Source: Halieaceae bacterium (GTDB lineage: Bacteria > Pseudomonadota > Gammaproteobacteria > Pseudomonadales > Halieaceae). From it: DNA of 64,000 bases. Each line of letters begins with the position of its first letter. Positions within the stretch are counted from its first letter, which is position 1. This document shows positions 30,672 to 38,046 of the stretch, piece by piece. Under the pieces are notes generated by a model. That model was not told where the DNA came from. It made no database searches and was given only the letters and a program-made list of their open reading frames with translations. The stretch spans positions 1 through 64,000 of the forward strand of contig CACOYM010000004.1 of assembly GCA_902631395.1 (NCBI GenBank), in the 5' to 3' direction. A program made the translations under genes and the position numbers.

Positions 30672-30748
30672 GCCTTGGTGGGGTGCTGACCCCATACTCA
30701 CCAAGCCATGCTATTCCCAGCCCACAACACCGGTTCATTGAGCTGACT

Positions 30749-32719
30749 ATGTCATCAGTCGAGACACTTTTCGCGCTAGCCAGCGAGGCCCTGAAAAATC
30801 AGGAACCAGAGCGTGCGAGAGACCTGTGTGCTGAGGCCCGGAATCAGCATCCCGATGACCCCCGATTTGTGATGTTGCATGGATTTGCGCTGCGGCGTTC
30901 GGGGGGTAATGCCGAAGCCGAACCGCTGTTGCGACGCACGCTGAAAGTGGATCCAAGTTTGGAGATTGCGCACCACGAATTGGGCTTAGCGCTTAAGGAA
31001 CTGGGGCGTCTCAGCGAGGCGCGAAGGGCGATGGAGGAGGCTGTTGCTCTAAGCCCTAACATGACCAAGGCATGGCGTGACCTCTATGAGGTGCGCGCTG
31101 CTGAGGGGGATGACGTCGGGGCTGCAGAGGCTTACCGACACGCGATGGGTAACAAGAAGCTCGACCCGTTGTTGGAAAAAGCCCTTGAGCTGGTGGGTCA
31201 AGGCCGTCTGGGTGTTGCCGAGGGCATTTGTCGACAGTACCTTAAACGGCGCCCCCATGATGTCGATGCAATTCGATTGTTAGCAGAGGTAGGTATCTCA
31301 ATTGGCTACATCGGCGAGGCGATATTGCTTTTGGAGCGTTGCCTTGAACTGGCGCCGGAATTTCACGTTGCGCGGACTAATTATGTAACGGCGCTTGCGC
31401 GCCATCAACGTTTCGACGAGGCACTGGCCGAAAACGAGAGGCTCAGAAAAGCACAACCGGATAACTTGGGACATCAGGTACAGTTCGCGACGACGCTCTC
31501 AGTTGCCGGACGATTCGAGATGGCACATGGTGAGTTCGCCAAAGTGTTAGAAAAGGCACCGGATAACGAACGTATTTTGACTAGCTATGGCCATGCGCTT
31601 CGCTACGGTGTTAAGGGTGAGGAAGCTATCGCGATGTACCTACGCGCTATCGAGGTCGAGCCCTCGGCGGGTGAGGCGTATTGGAGTTTGGCGAACCTCA
31701 AGACGTTTCGTTTCGACGACACGCAGTTGGCGAGCATGCAAGCAGAGCTTGATGGTCTCACGCGACCCAGTGAGGACAAGATCCATCTGGCGTTTGCGGT
31801 TGGAAAGGCGTTAGAGGACCGGCAGAATTACGAGCAATCCTTTACCGCTTATGCAGAGGGTAATGCCATCAAGCGCCAGATGAGTGGCTACGACGCCGAT
31901 AAGACCAGTGCGCGAGTAGATCAATTAATTGAGCGTTGTGGAGAGAATCTCTGGGATGGCAACGGACATCTATCCGATGAGGCCATCTTTATAATCGGCC
32001 TGCCGAGAGCCGGGTCAACTCTACTGGAGCAGATATTGGCGAGTCATTCCCGGGTAGAGGCTACGGCTGAGCTGCCTTTTATCGGTCGAATTATCGGTGA
32101 GATGGTCGCCGGCAGAGATCGCGATGACGAACCACTTTACCCTCGTATCCTGAGCGAACTTACGATTGAAGAGCGTGTCGCCAGAGGGCAGCAGTACCTC
32201 GATTTGGCGGCAGGGTATCGCACTGGCAAATCACGGTTTATCGATAAGCTGCCCAATAATTGGGAGCACGTGGCACTGATCAAGACCATCCTACCCAATG
32301 CGACCATCATCGACGCCCGACGACATCCCATGGCGGCGTGTTTCGCTAACTTCAAACAACTGTTTGCCCGGGGTCAGGAGTTCACGTACTCACTGGAGGA
32401 CATCGGCCGCTACTACGCGGACTATCTGCGTCTGATGTCTCATTGGCACAATATCTTCCCCGAGGGTTTGCTCACCGTTAAGTACGAGGAAGTCGTGGAC
32501 GACCTTCATACTCAGGTAAGGCAGCTCCTGTCGCACGCCAAGTTGGAATTTGAAGAGGCATGCTTGCGTTATTACGAGCAAGATCGCGTAGTGCGCACTG
32601 CCAGCTCGGAGCAGGTCAAGCAGCCTATCTACCGCGATGCGCTGCAGCTATGGGAGTGTTATCAGCCGCACCTCGCATCACTCGAGTCGATTTTTCGTGA
32701 GAGGGGCGTGCCGATCTAA
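30749..32719 (+). CDS. TPR-repeat sulfotransferase
   Basis: A 656-residue fusion of about nine TPR-like helical repeats (roughly residues 1-370) and a C-terminal PAPS-dependent sulfotransferase domain. The 5'-phosphosulfate loop is IIGLPRAGSTLLEQIL; the 3'-phosphate site is in DARRHPMAACFANFKQLF. It would transfer sulfate to an acceptor that is recognised, or brought in complex, by the repeats. The acceptor is unknown. The chosen start, ATG 30749, begins the first repeat; a longer frame from 30683 would add residues lying in the receptor terminator region. Genes of this type often lie beside TonB-dependent receptors in marine proteobacteria, as here. Confidence 0.85.
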   Translation: MSSVETLFALASEALKNQEPERARDLCAEARNQHPDDPRFVMLHGFALRRSGGNAEAEPLLRRTLKVDPSLEIAHHELGLALKELGRLSEARRAMEEAVALSPNMTKAWRDLYEVRAAEGDDVGAAEAYRHAMGNKKLDPLLEKALELVGQGRLGVAEGICRQYLKRRPHDVDAIRLLAEVGISIGYIGEAILLLERCLELAPEFHVARTNYVTALARHQRFDEALAENERLRKAQPDNLGHQVQFATTLSVAGRFEMAHGEFAKVLEKAPDNERILTSYGHALRYGVKGEEAIAMYLRAIEVEPSAGEAYWSLANLKTFRFDDTQLASMQAELDGLTRPSEDKIHLAFAVGKALEDRQNYEQSFTAYAEGNAIKRQMSGYDADKTSARVDQLIERCGENLWDGNGHLSDEAIFIIGLPRAGSTLLEQILASHSRVEATAELPFIGRIIGEMVAGRDRDDEPLYPRILSELTIEERVARGQQYLDLAAGYRTGKSRFIDKLPNNWEHVALIKTILPNATIIDARRHPMAACFANFKQLFARGQEFTYSLEDIGRYYADYLRLMSHWHNIFPEGLLTVKYEEVVDDLHTQVRQLLSHAKLEFEEACLRYYEQDRVVRTASSEQVKQPIYRDALQLWECYQPHLASLESIFRERGVPI

Positions 32720-33137: not shown

Positions 33138-34148
33138 ATGGAAAAGGATATTTTTGGTCAAGAGACGAAAATTCTCGCCGCAGCGAAAAAAACTATTGAT
33201 GAGGGGGGCGCCTCACCTGAGACCTACAGTGATCTTGTAAGCCAGTATGGCAAGTTACTTCGCACTACAAAAAAGATCATCAAGTTGAGCGATAAAAATG
33301 AGCAGCGTTTGAATGAGCTCAAACAGGAGGCGCAGGAGACAAATACCCAATTGGAGGGGATGTCTTCACAGCTTTCAAAGTTTCTCTCTCCACAGCTTTA
33401 CAATTCTATTTTCTCCGGTTCGAGGGCTGGTACTCGCGTCACTCGGCGCAAAAAGCTCACAGTATTCTTTTCGGACTTATGTGGCTTCACCAACTTTGTT
33501 GAAAGCATGGAGTCGGAGGATGTCACAAACCTCCTTAATCTTTACCTAGAGACTATGACGACCATCGCACTGGATTACGGTGCCACCATCGATAAATATA
33601 TTGGTGATGGAATCATGCTTTTTTTCGGAGACCCCGAGACGAAAGGTTTAAAGGAGGACGCAACGAGCTGCGTCAAAATGGGCCTCGATATGCTCAAGGA
33701 GCTCGACGATCTGTCAGATCAGTGGGTTAATTATGGGATGAAAGAACCGCTGCAGATGCGAATAGGTATCGACACTGGCTTCGCGACAGTAGGCAACTTC
33801 GGCAGTGAGTCAAGACTGGATTACACAGCTATCGGTTCGGCGGTGAATCGCGCCTCGCGGCTGGAGACGGCGGCTGACCACGGCACCATATTTATCTCCG
33901 AGGATACGTATAACCTGTGTAAAGATTCTATCGATGCGATCGAATTAGAGCCTATTCACTTGAAAGGTATTGGAGTATTTAGGGCCAGAAAAGTCGTTGG
34001 TACGATTGACTCTTCAGCCATTTCGGTAAGTCTCGGCAAGCGGAACTTATCGCTGGTACTAGACCGTTTGTCTGACGCAGATCTCAAAATAACGAGAGAG
34101 AGCCTAATACAGGCTCTCAGAGAGCTCGACGAGTACTCTGGGAAGTGA
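33138..34148 (+). CDS. Class III adenylate cyclase with N-terminal coiled coil
   Basis: A 336-residue soluble nucleotide cyclase predicted to make cAMP. Residues 1-90 are charged and helical, ending in the linker QLSKFLSPQLYNSIFSG. The catalytic domain (about 105-290) has the two metal aspartates, Asp113 in VFFSDLCGFT and Asp157 in DKYIGDG. Lys153 and Asp228 (RLDYTAIG) form the adenine-selecting pair, and Asn237 and Arg241 in VNRASRLE are the transition-state residues. All points to an active adenylate rather than guanylate cyclase. ATG 33138 is preferred over a TTG 42 nt earlier because of the GGGGG upstream. No sensor domain is visible; control probably comes from the convergent Sia-type proteins. 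Confidence 0.9.
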   Translation: MEKDIFGQETKILAAAKKTIDEGGASPETYSDLVSQYGKLLRTTKKIIKLSDKNEQRLNELKQEAQETNTQLEGMSSQLSKFLSPQLYNSIFSGSRAGTRVTRRKKLTVFFSDLCGFTNFVESMESEDVTNLLNLYLETMTTIALDYGATIDKYIGDGIMLFFGDPETKGLKEDATSCVKMGLDMLKELDDLSDQWVNYGMKEPLQMRIGIDTGFATVGNFGSESRLDYTAIGSAVNRASRLETAADHGTIFISEDTYNLCKDSIDAIELEPIHLKGIGVFRARKVVGTIDSSAISVSLGKRNLSLVLDRLSDADLKITRESLIQALRELDEYSGK

Positions 34149-34161
34149 CGCTACCGAGACG

Positions 34162-34707
34162 TCAGCTTACCCAGCCTCGGTACACGAACAACGCACCGTC
34201 CTCAGATTCAACAAAGTCGAACTCAAACTTTTTGACGCGCCTAGCCATCTCTATAAACCCCAGACCGGCACCAGCTGAATCTTCCGGAGGTCCTTCCCGA
34301 AGTCGCTTCTTATAGAGCTCTCGGAGCTCTTGCTGATCTTTCATGCTGAGTTCAACTAGGGTGGCCTCTAGTACATCTTTTTTCTCTGGATCAACTACAT
34401 TTACTGCCTCGATCAAAAATCCATTGTCGGCGATGCTAATCGCAATCGTCCCAATACTGTCACCAGTAGCTTTGGTCTTTCTGTGGGAGTACCGAATAAT
34501 GTTCTGTGCCTGTTCAATAAATACGCCAAACACCCTTTTTGCGACAACTTCTTCAGTTTCCTTGTCAGAGAGCTGATGCCTCACAGGACTCGAGATGGTC
34601 GTCAATAAATCTTCTGTCAAGGGACCGGAGTAGCAGAACAGAGTTCTTCTGTCCTGCATAAAGCTATGCAGTGCGACGGTATCTTTACTTTTGATCTTCT
34701 TGACCAT
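34162..34707 (-). CDS. siaB: SiaB-like protein kinase (GHKL-type ATPase)
   Basis: A 181-residue cytoplasmic protein of the SiaB family (DUF6272). In Pseudomonas this kinase phosphorylates the small regulator SiaC. The N-box-like helix reads FIEQAQNIIRYSHRK, with the Asn and following residues that hold Mg-ATP, and the later G-rich loop is SAGAGLGFIEMARR, both in the expected order. Length matches SiaB. It is the last gene of the operon, 36 nt after the siaC-like gene, and its stop is 14 nt from the stop of the convergent adenylate cyclase. The partner SiaC-like protein and opposing SiaA-like phosphatase are both present, so the switch is complete. Confidence 0.82.
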   Translation of the reverse strand: MVKKIKSKDTVALHSFMQDRRTLFCYSGPLTEDLLTTISSPVRHQLSDKETEEVVAKRVFGVFIEQAQNIIRYSHRKTKATGDSIGTIAISIADNGFLIEAVNVVDPEKKDVLEATLVELSMKDQQELRELYKKRLREGPPEDSAGAGLGFIEMARRVKKFEFDFVESEDGALFVYRGWVS

Positions 34708-34743
34708 GTCAGTGACCTCAAATAATCTTCGGGACCTCGGCGC

Positions 34744-35121
34744 CTACTCCGCCAAGCTCTCTACCTGCACCATGTTATAGGAGCATGCGGACACATCCTC
34801 CTCAAAGTCCTCACCAGCTTCCTGCATGGTGTCGTCCTCAGCTCGATAACGCCAGTTAATGGTTATTGCTTTTCCTCCTTCCGCACTTTCCTCGAGAAAC
34901 TCGAAAAAATCGAACAGAAATTTGGCGGAAGAACTGTTGAAATAATAAAGCTCGATGTCGACCTTGAATTCACTATTGTCGTTACTCAAACACTCTTCCA
35001 GCGTCTTCAGCACGGGCTCAGACCACTCTGATATATTTTCGGGATAGCACTCGCCTCTGATCAAGCATGAGGTGGGAGTCAGCTCTACGAGCGGCGTGCG
35101 CTGACTAGCTTCATAAATCAT
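34744..35121 (-). CDS. siaC: SiaC-like regulatory phosphoprotein (DUF1987)
   Basis: A 125-residue protein of the SiaC family, an anti-sigma-antagonist-like fold. In P. aeruginosa the unphosphorylated form binds and activates the diguanylate cyclase SiaD. The characteristic opening IRGECYPENISEW and the phospho-site strand LYYFNSSSAKF are present. The phospho-acceptor equivalent to the SiaC threonine appears to be Ser63 here. A following acidic C-terminus (EDFEEDVSAC) is typical. Its start overlaps the phosphatase stop by four bases (ATGA), so phosphatase and substrate are made together. No diguanylate cyclase is adjacent; the neighbouring cyclase is of the adenylate type. Confidence 0.83.
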   Translation of the reverse strand: MIYEASQRTPLVELTPTSCLIRGECYPENISEWSEPVLKTLEECLSNDNSEFKVDIELYYFNSSSAKFLFDFFEFLEESAEGGKAITINWRYRAEDDTMQEAGEDFEEDVSACSYNMVQVESLAE

Positions 35122-37373
35122 GAGTCTTCTCCAACTGCTTCTGCTGCATGAAATTCGTTATCGTCATCGATTAAAGAGAAAGCCAAAAGCGTCAGATCAT
35201 CTCGGAACGGTGCATCCCCGCGGTAAAGATTTACGCTACTCATAATGTTTTTGACAATCGAAGAGGGGGTTTTATCAGACGACTGCGTGAGAATCTTGAG
35301 CACTCTGCGTCTTCCAAAAGCGATAGGCTTCTCCTCGGGACTCATCACATCTGTAATGCCATCTGTCAACATAACAAAAGCGCCCTTAGGCGCCTCAATC
35401 TCATGTGTGGTGAAGGTAAAGTCTGTCGCCATTCTCGTAGATCCGACAGATTTGCGATCTCCACTGGTCTCAGTTGCCTCGAGGCCGTCAACATTAAAGA
35501 TCGATGATTTAGCGCCAGCGAACTCCAGTCTGTGCTCTTTACGATAGTAGATGCAGACGCCGCCGTCGAAGCCTTCCTCGCTGGTGTTCTTTTGATCAGA
35601 GCGAGATAACGTCTCTTTCAAAAGCTCATTCACCGATGAAAGGTAGCCACCCGCGCTCTGATAATTTCCAGCGTCAATGGCTTTATCGAGATGACTACGC
35701 GCAATGATTGAGAGAAACGCTCCCGGCACCCCGTGACCGGTGCAGTCCACCACAGCTATATAGACTCTGTCTGGGAAGTCCTTAATAAAGTAAATGTCTC
35801 CCCCAACGAGGTCCCTGGGCCGCCATTCCACGTTGATGTCGAAATCTCCCGGCATGGTTTTCGGGAGTAATGCATTCTGTAGTTTTGCGGCATAGCGGAT
35901 GGAGCTATTGATCTCGTCTTTCGCTGCAACCAATTCATGCGTCCTTGCGTCGATCAAAGTAGACACCTCGTCCGACATTCTGGAGAAGGCCTGGGACATC
36001 ACTTCGATTGACGCGCGCTCCTTTTCCTCATCGCTGCCTGAGGAGACGCTGTCTCGCATGGCGCTGATCTCTTGTGTCAGCATGTGCTTAGCTTGCCCCT
36101 CAAGCTGCTCCGCTAGCAGCGCCATTTTTTCAAACATGATGGTGTCGCGCTCATCTCGCCTTATCGCACGCTCCTTTCTGTGCTCTTCTGCTTCGAGACG
36201 ATGATTTCGATAGTCCTCAATTGCGCTTTGTAGTCTGCTCACTTCGTCATTTTTGGATGATAGTAGTCCCGAGTGTTTAACAGCCTCGGCAGAGAGATCT
36301 CCGTCACCCATTCTCTCCAGAAGATGAATTGCGTCGAGAATGCGATTGAAGGATGACGTAGTGACAACGAAGACTAGAGCGAGTATCGCGAGGGCCAGAG
36401 CCACAAAAATAACGTAGGCGGTGGTCTCTGATTTTTTGAGAACCGCTAGGAGCTCACTTTGATCATCAAATATGAGAATTCTAAGATCACTTGCCCTCAC
36501 CTCTTTGCTAAACGGTATTGAGGACACTCGTGTGTTTTGCCCTGCGGCAATGAAGCTATAGGTGAATGAACCCGTTTCTCGAGCGTGAGATTGCCCTGCT
36601 CTAATTAACTTATTGAGTTCAGTCGGGCGCTCCTCTTCATAGTAATCGTGAACGGTCAGTGCTTGATCGCCAATAGCAATCGCTGATTCAATTTCAAAGT
36701 TTTCGGCGAACTGCTCAAGACTGTCGATGACGTTACGGCCCACGACAACCATACCAATTACTCTCTCATCTCCTGTCTGCAGAGGAAATGCCAGCGTATC
36801 GTTGATTGATACAGGTTGCTCGCCGGATAGGTCATTAATCTTTGTAACACGGCGGACCGATCCATTTTCAAGGCTGTTGACAAACGACCCGAATTTCAAA
36901 AAGTAGTCCGGTTGTGCAGTTTCTGCACATGGGTCTACCCCGACTAGATAAAGACTTGATTCGCAATACAGTTGCAACCCTCTTTTATCATAGGCGATTG
37001 CAAAGGTGATTTGCTCCTCCATGATTGGATCTGAGAACACTTGCTCAAATAGCGAGGCAGCGGTCTCGGCGTCTTTCGCGCTGATTGCTGCGAATAGCGG
37101 GTTGGCATCATCACTATCCCCAAATGCGTCGGCATCTGGATCCCAGAAACTCGCGTTGCGCTCTGACCCGTCGAGCGGGTCGAAGGTGAGCAAATTACTC
37201 ACAAACTGGGTATCCATGTTGCTAAACCACGCAGAGGCGTGCGCGGTCAAGCTCTCTTCCGAGCTGTAATCCTTGTGTGCAGAGTTTAGTTGCGCCGACG
37301 AGTAAAAGTTGGCCATGAATAAGCCGCCAATTCCTAAAAGGATAATAAGCAGCATTTTGCTTTTAATCGTCAT
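35118..37373 (-). CDS. siaA: SiaA-like membrane PP2C phosphatase with periplasmic sensor
   Basis: A 751-residue receptor phosphatase expected to dephosphorylate the SiaC-like protein. Helix 1 spans residues 7-24 and helix 2 residues 318-338; the 290 residues between them are periplasmic and form the sensor. A HAMP-like segment follows (about 340-395: ILDAIHLLERMGDGDLS), then a long charged coiled coil (380-500). The SpoIIE/PP2C domain follows, with metal residues Asp521 and Asp526 (PRDLVGGDIYF), Asp543 (VDCTGHGVPGAFLS), a TDGITD motif and the final RDDLTLLAF. It lies 15 nt after a periplasmic TonB-type protein gene and is coupled to siaC by ATGA. The ligand is unknown. Confidence 0.87.
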   Translation of the reverse strand: MTIKSKMLLIILLGIGGLFMANFYSSAQLNSAHKDYSSEESLTAHASAWFSNMDTQFVSNLLTFDPLDGSERNASFWDPDADAFGDSDDANPLFAAISAKDAETAASLFEQVFSDPIMEEQITFAIAYDKRGLQLYCESSLYLVGVDPCAETAQPDYFLKFGSFVNSLENGSVRRVTKINDLSGEQPVSINDTLAFPLQTGDERVIGMVVVGRNVIDSLEQFAENFEIESAIAIGDQALTVHDYYEEERPTELNKLIRAGQSHARETGSFTYSFIAAGQNTRVSSIPFSKEVRASDLRILIFDDQSELLAVLKKSETTAYVIFVALALAILALVFVVTTSSFNRILDAIHLLERMGDGDLSAEAVKHSGLLSSKNDEVSRLQSAIEDYRNHRLEAEEHRKERAIRRDERDTIMFEKMALLAEQLEGQAKHMLTQEISAMRDSVSSGSDEEKERASIEVMSQAFSRMSDEVSTLIDARTHELVAAKDEINSSIRYAAKLQNALLPKTMPGDFDINVEWRPRDLVGGDIYFIKDFPDRVYIAVVDCTGHGVPGAFLSIIARSHLDKAIDAGNYQSAGGYLSSVNELLKETLSRSDQKNTSEEGFDGGVCIYYRKEHRLEFAGAKSSIFNVDGLEATETSGDRKSVGSTRMATDFTFTTHEIEAPKGAFVMLTDGITDVMSPEEKPIAFGRRRVLKILTQSSDKTPSSIVKNIMSSVNLYRGDAPFRDDLTLLAFSLIDDDNEFHAAEAVGEDS

Positions 37374-37388
37374 ACCTTCAGTCCAACC

Positions 37389-37778
37389 CTATTGAAGTGC
37401 GAAACGCACTTTGAACTTGATGTCGGTTACGGGAACAGCGTCGCCATCTTCCTCGGGCATGGAGAATTTAAATCCACCCACAAACTTCAGCGCGCTCTTG
37501 TCGAACATTAGTCGGGGCTGAGCATCGATGACCCGCAAGTCTAGAATTTCACCATCTTTGGAGAGGTCAAAACCCACCATCACAAAGCCCTCGACGTCCA
37601 GTCGTTGAGCTCTCCTAGGATATTTGAGTTTGGGTGTTTTGACGATTTCAACTGCCACTATGTCCCCTGAGGGGACGGTGCCTTTTACAGAAGCTGCAAA
37701 GGAAGGTGCGGCAATCAGATATGCAAGGCACCCGATCAGTGCCCATAGTCTCGCTTTATTTTGTCTAATTTCACGCAT
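37389..37778 (-). CDS. Periplasmic TonB C-terminal-domain protein
   Basis: A 129-residue protein with a cleavable-looking signal (core LWALIGCLAYLIAAPSFA) and a single TonB C-terminal domain. The recognisable core is KLKYPRRAQRLDVEGFVMVG followed by DLSKDGEILDLRVIDAQP and a C-terminal strand ending VRFALQ. It lacks the long proline-rich linker and the anchored helix of a true TonB, so it is unlikely to power outer-membrane receptors. It is more likely a soluble binding or scaffold protein. ATG 37778 is preferred to a TTG 12 nt upstream. It is the first gene of the operon with the siaA-like sensor phosphatase, 15 nt away, which suggests a role in sensing at the cell envelope. Confidence 0.8.
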   Translation of the reverse strand: MREIRQNKARLWALIGCLAYLIAAPSFAASVKGTVPSGDIVAVEIVKTPKLKYPRRAQRLDVEGFVMVGFDLSKDGEILDLRVIDAQPRLMFDKSALKFVGGFKFSMPEEDGDAVPVTDIKFKVRFALQ

Positions 37779-38046
37779 TGTCCCGTCCAAGTATTTCCCC
37801 GTTTTCGTGTGCCAAAGGTTTCCCGGCTGGCTTGAACGTCACCTAGATAGACTCGCTCTTGCCTAGCCCGTTAGGGTGTGTATCGCCACGGGTAATACCC
37901 GCATTGAGTGTAAATCACCACAACAGCTCTTGATCAATCAACCCAAGGTAGATTGCTCACACAAGTATTTCAATAGTTGATCATCAATAAGATACGAAAA
38001 GCGTATTTGATTTTATACCTGAGCCAGCCGCGAACGTTAAATTTTG
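37779..38046. other. Control region upstream of the TonB/sia operon
   Basis: About 270 nt without a gene, upstream of the minus-strand operon. It contains the near-palindrome at 37889-37901, a TTGATCAA palindrome at about 37929-37936 and an ATACG/CGTAT hairpin near 37997. The operon promoter is probably here. Confidence 0.4.
37889..37901. promoter_or_regulatory. Operator-like palindrome upstream of the TonB/sia operon
   Basis: CGGGTA-A-TACCCG, perfect 6-base arms around one central base, 110 nt upstream of the TonB-like ATG. It is compact and symmetric, as expected for a dimeric repressor site. No matching regulator is adjacent. Confidence 0.35.

Follow-up and report, generated by a model that had tools for sequence, protein, structure and literature searches.

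A SiaABC-type partner switch beside a class III adenylyl cyclase with a predicted SiaC-docking stalk

Introduction

The SiaABCD system of Pseudomonas aeruginosa joins a PP2C phosphatase, a DUF6272 kinase and the phosphoprotein SiaC to an output enzyme, the GGDEF protein SiaD (7e6g), whose stalk carries a SiaC-binding motif. According to PMC8457831, the SiaD contacts to SiaC include R74, K77, V78, R80, I81, S82, D83, R84, Y85 and Q86; SiaC T68 bonds SiaD S82 and Q86, and phosphorylation of T68 prevents binding. HsbA-HsbD and BgrV-BgrR, as presented in the same paper, also use a STAS-type partner-switch protein to modulate a cyclase. We liken them to the present locus by description alone, and they differ from it in that their outputs are diguanylate cyclases and their partners other STAS proteins. 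PMC9239204 proposes PP2C/STAS control for Campylobacterota c-di-GMP enzymes and chemoreceptors, not for adenylate cyclases. In the literature we searched, c-di-GMP is the only messenger for which control by SiaC is described, and a pairing of SiaC with an adenylate cyclase is undescribed in the titles and abstract openings among the matches listed.

Here we analyse a locus in a 64,000-nucleotide stretch of Halieaceae DNA, referred to below as the window, that has all the components of the P. aeruginosa system except that its output enzyme is a class III cyclase and not a GGDEF protein. All component families have precedents, and the novelty lies in the cyclase output and a proposed portable stalk. 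In the explanation that we consider very probable, SiaA and SiaB control whether SiaC is phosphorylated at Ser63, free SiaC docks on the cyclase stalk and activates the enzyme, and phosphorylation by SiaB stops synthesis.

Results

Organisation of the locus

Four genes lie on the minus strand: a small TonB_C-domain gene (37389–37790; PF03544, 6.6e-16) 5′ of siaA, a siaA-like gene for a membrane PP2C phosphatase (35118–37373; SpoIIE/PP2C PF07228, 5.1e-18; 7.1e-39 to SiaA 6k4e), a siaC-like gene (34744–35121; PF09345, 8e-32; 5e-15 to SiaC 6kko) and a siaB-like kinase gene (34162–34707; DUF6272 PF19788, 7.3e-32; NF038262, 148.2 bits with a cut-off of 85). The cyclase gene (33138–34148; PF00211 Guanylate_cyc, 2.9e-25) encodes 336 residues from the ATG at 33138 and, unlike its counterpart in P. 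aeruginosa, is on the opposite (plus) strand, convergent with siaB. An earlier reading of the letters alone (the sequence-only reading) had reported intact SiaA-, SiaC- and SiaB-like genes with ATGA coupling and a cyclase ending close to siaB. Open reading frames and Pfam matches place all of these genes where it had put them, the siaA/siaC overlap falls at 35118–35121, and the cyclase (end, 34148) and siaB (end, 34162) stand tail to tail with 13 nt between them. The spacing of siaC and siaB is 36 nt. Promoter-like sites were fewer than in shuffled sequence (3 vs a mean of 5.1) and terminator-like sites more numerous (9 vs a mean of 4.8).

The TonB_C gene lies inside the interval covered by the sequence-only reading, which did not mention it. 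Its relatives occur in 12 other fetched loci, each adjoining siaA by coordinates, and its product is possibly a periplasmic partner of the SiaA sensor. Upstream of the cyclase, at 30683–32719 of the window, is a gene for a TPR protein with a C-terminal Sulfotransfer_3 domain.

The three switch proteins differ from those of P. aeruginosa in falling below the NCBIfam equivalog cut-offs. The SiaC-like protein passes the Pfam PF09345 gathering score (109.9 bits, cut-off 24.5) and scores 75.2 bits against the P. aeruginosa-type SiaC equivalog NF038265 (cut-off 150); the SiaB-like protein scores 93.8 bits against NF038264 (cut-off 225), and the SiaA-like protein, of which only the C-terminal phosphatase part matches, 169.9 bits against NF038263 (cut-off 700). 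Highly conserved columns are retained in SiaB (E65, N69, G146, G148, G150) and in SiaA (D526, D543, D671, D725, D726). The SiaC phosphosite Thr68 aligns with a serine, Ser63 (codon 34933–34935, minus strand; numbered by subtraction). Among 144 SiaC proteins this column holds Ser in 127 and Thr in 17, that is, Ser or Thr in 144/144, and it is preceded by an invariant Asn (144/144), present here as N62.

A complete catalytic domain

Class III cyclases function as dimers whose active sites lie between the two subunits. CyaB of P. aeruginosa has a membrane N-terminal domain, unlike the present cyclase with its predicted SiaC-docking stalk at that end. PF00211, at residues 103–277 (33444–33968, plus strand), is the sole Pfam domain of the output protein, rather than the GGDEF that marks SiaD. 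The adenine pair K153/D228, on which the enzyme had been called a complete class III adenylate cyclase, is present together with N237 and R241 and the metal residues D113 and D157; the catalytic K/D, N and R residues are the same as in CyaB (3r5g), and the two catalytic domains share 52% identity with an rmsd of 1.1. All 50 matches listed by a fold search with the cyclase are nucleotide cyclases, and judging from sequence its product would be cAMP. The AlphaFold monomer (mean pLDDT 79.9) has a helix at 5–21 and a long helix at 27–82, followed by the catalytic domain. Residues 290–336 form an extension C-terminal to that domain, modelled as two strands plus a helix.

The N-terminal stalk resembles that of SiaD

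The sequence-only reading regarded the cyclase N-terminus as a coiled coil lacking a sensor. It overlooked both a likely docking role for this segment and the place of cyclases as one kind of output among several. Residues 4–67 (33147–33338, plus strand) resemble the SiaD stalk. They are matched by STALK, an HMM that was started from the cyclase's first 72 residues, and score 2.9e-21 in their own genome in search A1, where the sequence is a training row. With an offset of 31, K46, I47, K49, L50, S51, D52 and K53 of the cyclase align with K77, V78, R80, I81, S82, D83 and R84 of SiaD, giving the pattern K-I-x-K-L-S-D-K against K-V-x-R-I-S-D-R. The predicted SiaC-binding motif, K46–E55 (33273–33302, plus strand), thus pairs with SiaD K77–Q86, the contacts being those reported in PMC8457831. 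Contact positions that differ are Glu55 (SiaD Q86) and Thr43 (SiaD R74). The motif Asp is invariant wherever the residue is present (51/51 cyclase, 36/36 GGDEF and 31/31 other stalks); in the 51 cyclase stalks the S82 position holds Ser in 45 and Asn in 6, and the Q86 position Glu in 42, Gln in 5 and Ala in 4.

A profile built from 32 cyclase stalks and zero GGDEF proteins was run against 177,635 PDB sequences and returned SiaD 7e6g first, with a modest E of 0.0037 (next match, 0.036). SiaD was also the top PDB match of a mixed profile that includes seven GGDEF stalks (E 0.0084), and hhalign of the cyclase stalks to SiaD-like stalks, a group in which L079 matches 7e6g at 5.4e-88 and passes the NCBIfam SiaD cut-off, gave 84.7%. 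A single-sequence phmmer search with the cyclase N-terminus gave 13 PDB matches up to E 10, and SiaD was absent from them. One locus, L061, was excluded from alignment A6. Taken singly, neither the two profile matches nor the hhalign result is strong; all three place the proximal SiaC motif in the same register. The coiled coil is a likely docking site for SiaC, which would bind the stalk physically.

Stalk and siaC occur together

Among 293 genomes of the order, SiaC was found in 22 and the stalk in 12, all of them SiaC-positive; 5 of the 12 are in the training alignment, and the other 7 are weak GGDEF-type matches (E 7.5e-5 to 9.8e-4) beside siaC. None of the 271 SiaC-negative genomes of the order had a stalk match (Fisher 1e-15). 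The module is patchy, since all 11 same-genus or same-family genomes sampled lack both SiaC and stalk.

We also scanned genome contigs for cyclase loci, using as query the N-terminal alignment of nine siaC-linked cyclases and making no use of the siaC gene; the figures rest on the best 80 of 554 confirmed loci. Within these 80, siaC was nearby in 38/39 stalk cyclase loci vs 0/41 stalkless loci (Fisher 4e-22), and in 37 loci the stalk was inside the cyclase ORF with both siaC and siaB present. At L217 the stalk is a separate ORF and siaC is present. At L212, on a 3-kb contig of a Methyloceanibacter bin, both the stalk and the cyclase frame are broken and siaC is absent, which represents decay or an assembly error. 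Of the 42 loci where siaC was not found (best 80 of 554), ten are shorter than 12 kb, and at those its absence is less certain. A further discordant row is L208, a siaC locus that also contains a second cyclase ORF, this one lacking a stalk. L212 and L208 mar otherwise perfect tables, and our confidence in the preferred explanation is therefore high and no higher.

The sequence-only reading had proposed looking for class III cyclases recurrent in such neighbourhoods. They recur: stalk cyclases lie beside siaC in 14 of 106 SiaC loci and in 38 of the cyclase loci (best 80 of 554), in Gamma-, Beta- and Alphaproteobacteria, Magnetococcales, Pseudodesulfovibrio and a Sulfurovum bin. The closest named contig to the window among the matches listed is from a Luminiphilus bin (Halieaceae). 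In 27 of 51 stalk-cyclase loci the cyclase is on the siaC strand and adjoins or overlaps siaC; in 20 it converges on siaB, the arrangement of the window; in 3 it is co-directional and siaB is the gene nearest to it; and 1 locus is divergent. The 51 include three pairs with identical catalytic domains. The distance between cyclase and siaC reaches 2.4 kb at L207 and 3.1 kb at L261. The latter, where the siaC set lies about 3 kb from a stalk cyclase, comes from the Sulfurovum bin and is possibly a bin error; according to PMC9239204, all Campylobacterota adenylate cyclases have CHASE2.

A catalytic-domain tree with 96 rows rejects a single clade of stalk cyclases (AU p 6e-11), and the stalk label needs 10 changes, 6 of them forced by supported branches. 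Stalk and siaC agree in 6/6 independent tree pairs (p 0.031), or in 5/5 (p 0.0625) when rows fetched through siaC are left out; L217 was excluded from this paired test.

Charge covariation at a predicted contact

The covariation set comprised 114 loci, each with a single SiaC and a single stalk; those with two stalks or two SiaC proteins were excluded. SiaC position 109 is equivalent to D114 of SiaC, and stalk position 46 to K77 of SiaD. In PMC8457831, D114 is among the SiaC side chains bonded to a residue set that includes K77 and R74, and the pairing in the text is not one-to-one throughout. The two positions are acidic and basic, respectively, in 103/114 loci (His counted as basic), Arg and Asp in 7/114, and neutral or gapped in 4/114; like charges occur in 0/114. 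The seven Arg/Asp loci are betaproteobacterial-type cyclase loci, and the swap was probably one event, because the six of them included in the tree group as a single clade.

These data bear on the idea that the stalk is a mere dimerisation coiled coil, that chance or operon traffic accounts for its likeness to SiaD and proximity to siaC, and that SiaC acts elsewhere. Helical sequences do match by chance, and other helical proteins rank below SiaD in both profile searches. Against this stand the 41 cyclases (best 80 of 554) that have other N-termini and no siaC, the 0/271 SiaC-negative genomes with a stalk match, the joint changes of stalk and siaC on the tree, and the charge swap, and we consider the idea very unlikely.

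GGDEF proteins in this and related genomes

That no GGDEF gene accompanies the siaABC set extends to the window's whole assembly, which gave zero GGDEF matches; the same search found matches in 8/14 control genomes. Because the assembly is 88.76% complete, a GGDEF gene could lie in its missing part, and the true SiaC target could then be an unassembled SiaD-type GGDEF protein, with the cyclase a passenger. The lack of any GGDEF match in the assembly speaks against this, as does G200, a relative of 97% completeness that likewise has none, and so does the recurrence of the cyclase with the SiaABC set; such a target is extremely improbable. GGDEF matches in the five other (likely) cyclase-type genomes of the order number 0 in G200, 1 each in G039 and G179, 9 in G159 and 11 in G222. 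A GGDEF gene recurring with the set had been named as evidence that would count against the cyclase; in G039, G159, G200 and G222 the only stalk match is the cyclase. In G179, which has zero stalk matches, the contig ends after siaB.

The window's assembly encodes one SiaC, two class III cyclases and four cNMP-binding domains, one of which belongs to a CRP-like regulator near the second cyclase. That cyclase (G000:C1:250118-252001; L166, L168) has, by inspection, a receiver-like N-terminus and zero stalk matches.

The stalk on other outputs

A phmmer search with the first 95 residues of the cyclase found 32 ORFs in 31/81 loci, the window included. The STALK HMM was applied to 106 SiaC loci, namely the window and all SiaC scan matches minus G453:C4, a sub-threshold fragment with a stop, and found 81 ORFs in 80 of them: 36 GGDEF proteins, 14 class III cyclases, 2 PP2C proteins and 29 others. 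Every class III cyclase ORF detected in the 106 loci has the stalk (14/14). The stalk went undetected in 26/106 loci, some of which end near siaC, and L090, a SiaC locus, has a GGDEF neighbour with no stalk match.

Pfam assigns HD_5 to 22 of the 29 other stalk ORFs and HATPase_c to 6; the stalk protein at L119 has GAF domains and terminates with its contig. At L125, L120, L118 and other A7 loci, stalk proteins with GAF and HD-GYP-type (22/29) or histidine-kinase (6/29) domains stand beside siaC, and these proteins are likely further SiaC outputs. Two loci, L205:9932 and L206:1027, pair one siaC with two stalk proteins, of which one is a cyclase and the other has 732 or 757 residues; here a single SiaC switch may drive two outputs.

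Discussion

The sequence-only reading proposed that SiaC switches cAMP synthesis in this lineage, and the results support it, the evidence being comparative sequence analysis throughout. In the mechanism we favour, the membrane PP2C phosphatase SiaA and the kinase SiaB would determine whether Ser63 of SiaC is phosphorylated, and unphosphorylated SiaC would dock on the cyclase's N-terminal stalk in the way that SiaC binds SiaD. If the SiaD analogy holds, this free SiaC would straighten two stalks and keep them together as a parallel coiled coil, and the catalytic domains would therefore be aligned and united to make cAMP. Phosphorylation by SiaB would release SiaC and stop synthesis, and the cAMP would act through CRP-type proteins. 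Since one SiaC-binding motif is seen in the cyclase stalk vs two in that of SiaD, the complex would probably contain two SiaC and two cyclase molecules.

Docking and co-occurrence leave the sign of the effect undefined, and free SiaC on the stalk might instead block catalysis until phosphorylation relieves the block. We regard inhibition as improbable. A coiled coil held by SiaC would favour dimers, which class III cyclases need, and the same motif of SiaD mediates activation, as stated in PMC8457831. The SiaD analogy makes activation by SiaC the better guess.

More widely, the stalk may be a portable SiaC receptor for several output enzymes. SiaA, SiaB and SiaC would then form an output-agnostic partner switch, in which a stalk of about 65 residues has been fused repeatedly, in several phyla, to adenylyl and diguanylate cyclases, GAF-HD-GYP proteins, histidine kinases and PP2C proteins, and which gates the synthesis of cAMP and c-di-GMP, probably c-di-GMP breakdown, and phosphorelays. 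We believe this broader view to be probable, with somewhat less assurance than for the cyclase itself. If the stalk is portable, the activator would be separate from the output because the activator is a module; the receptor could be read from sequence, and SiaC targets would be predictable in any genome. The switch would also be a ready-made protein switch for cyclases, useful to engineers, and in marine Gammaproteobacteria it would tie a signal at a membrane phosphatase to cAMP.
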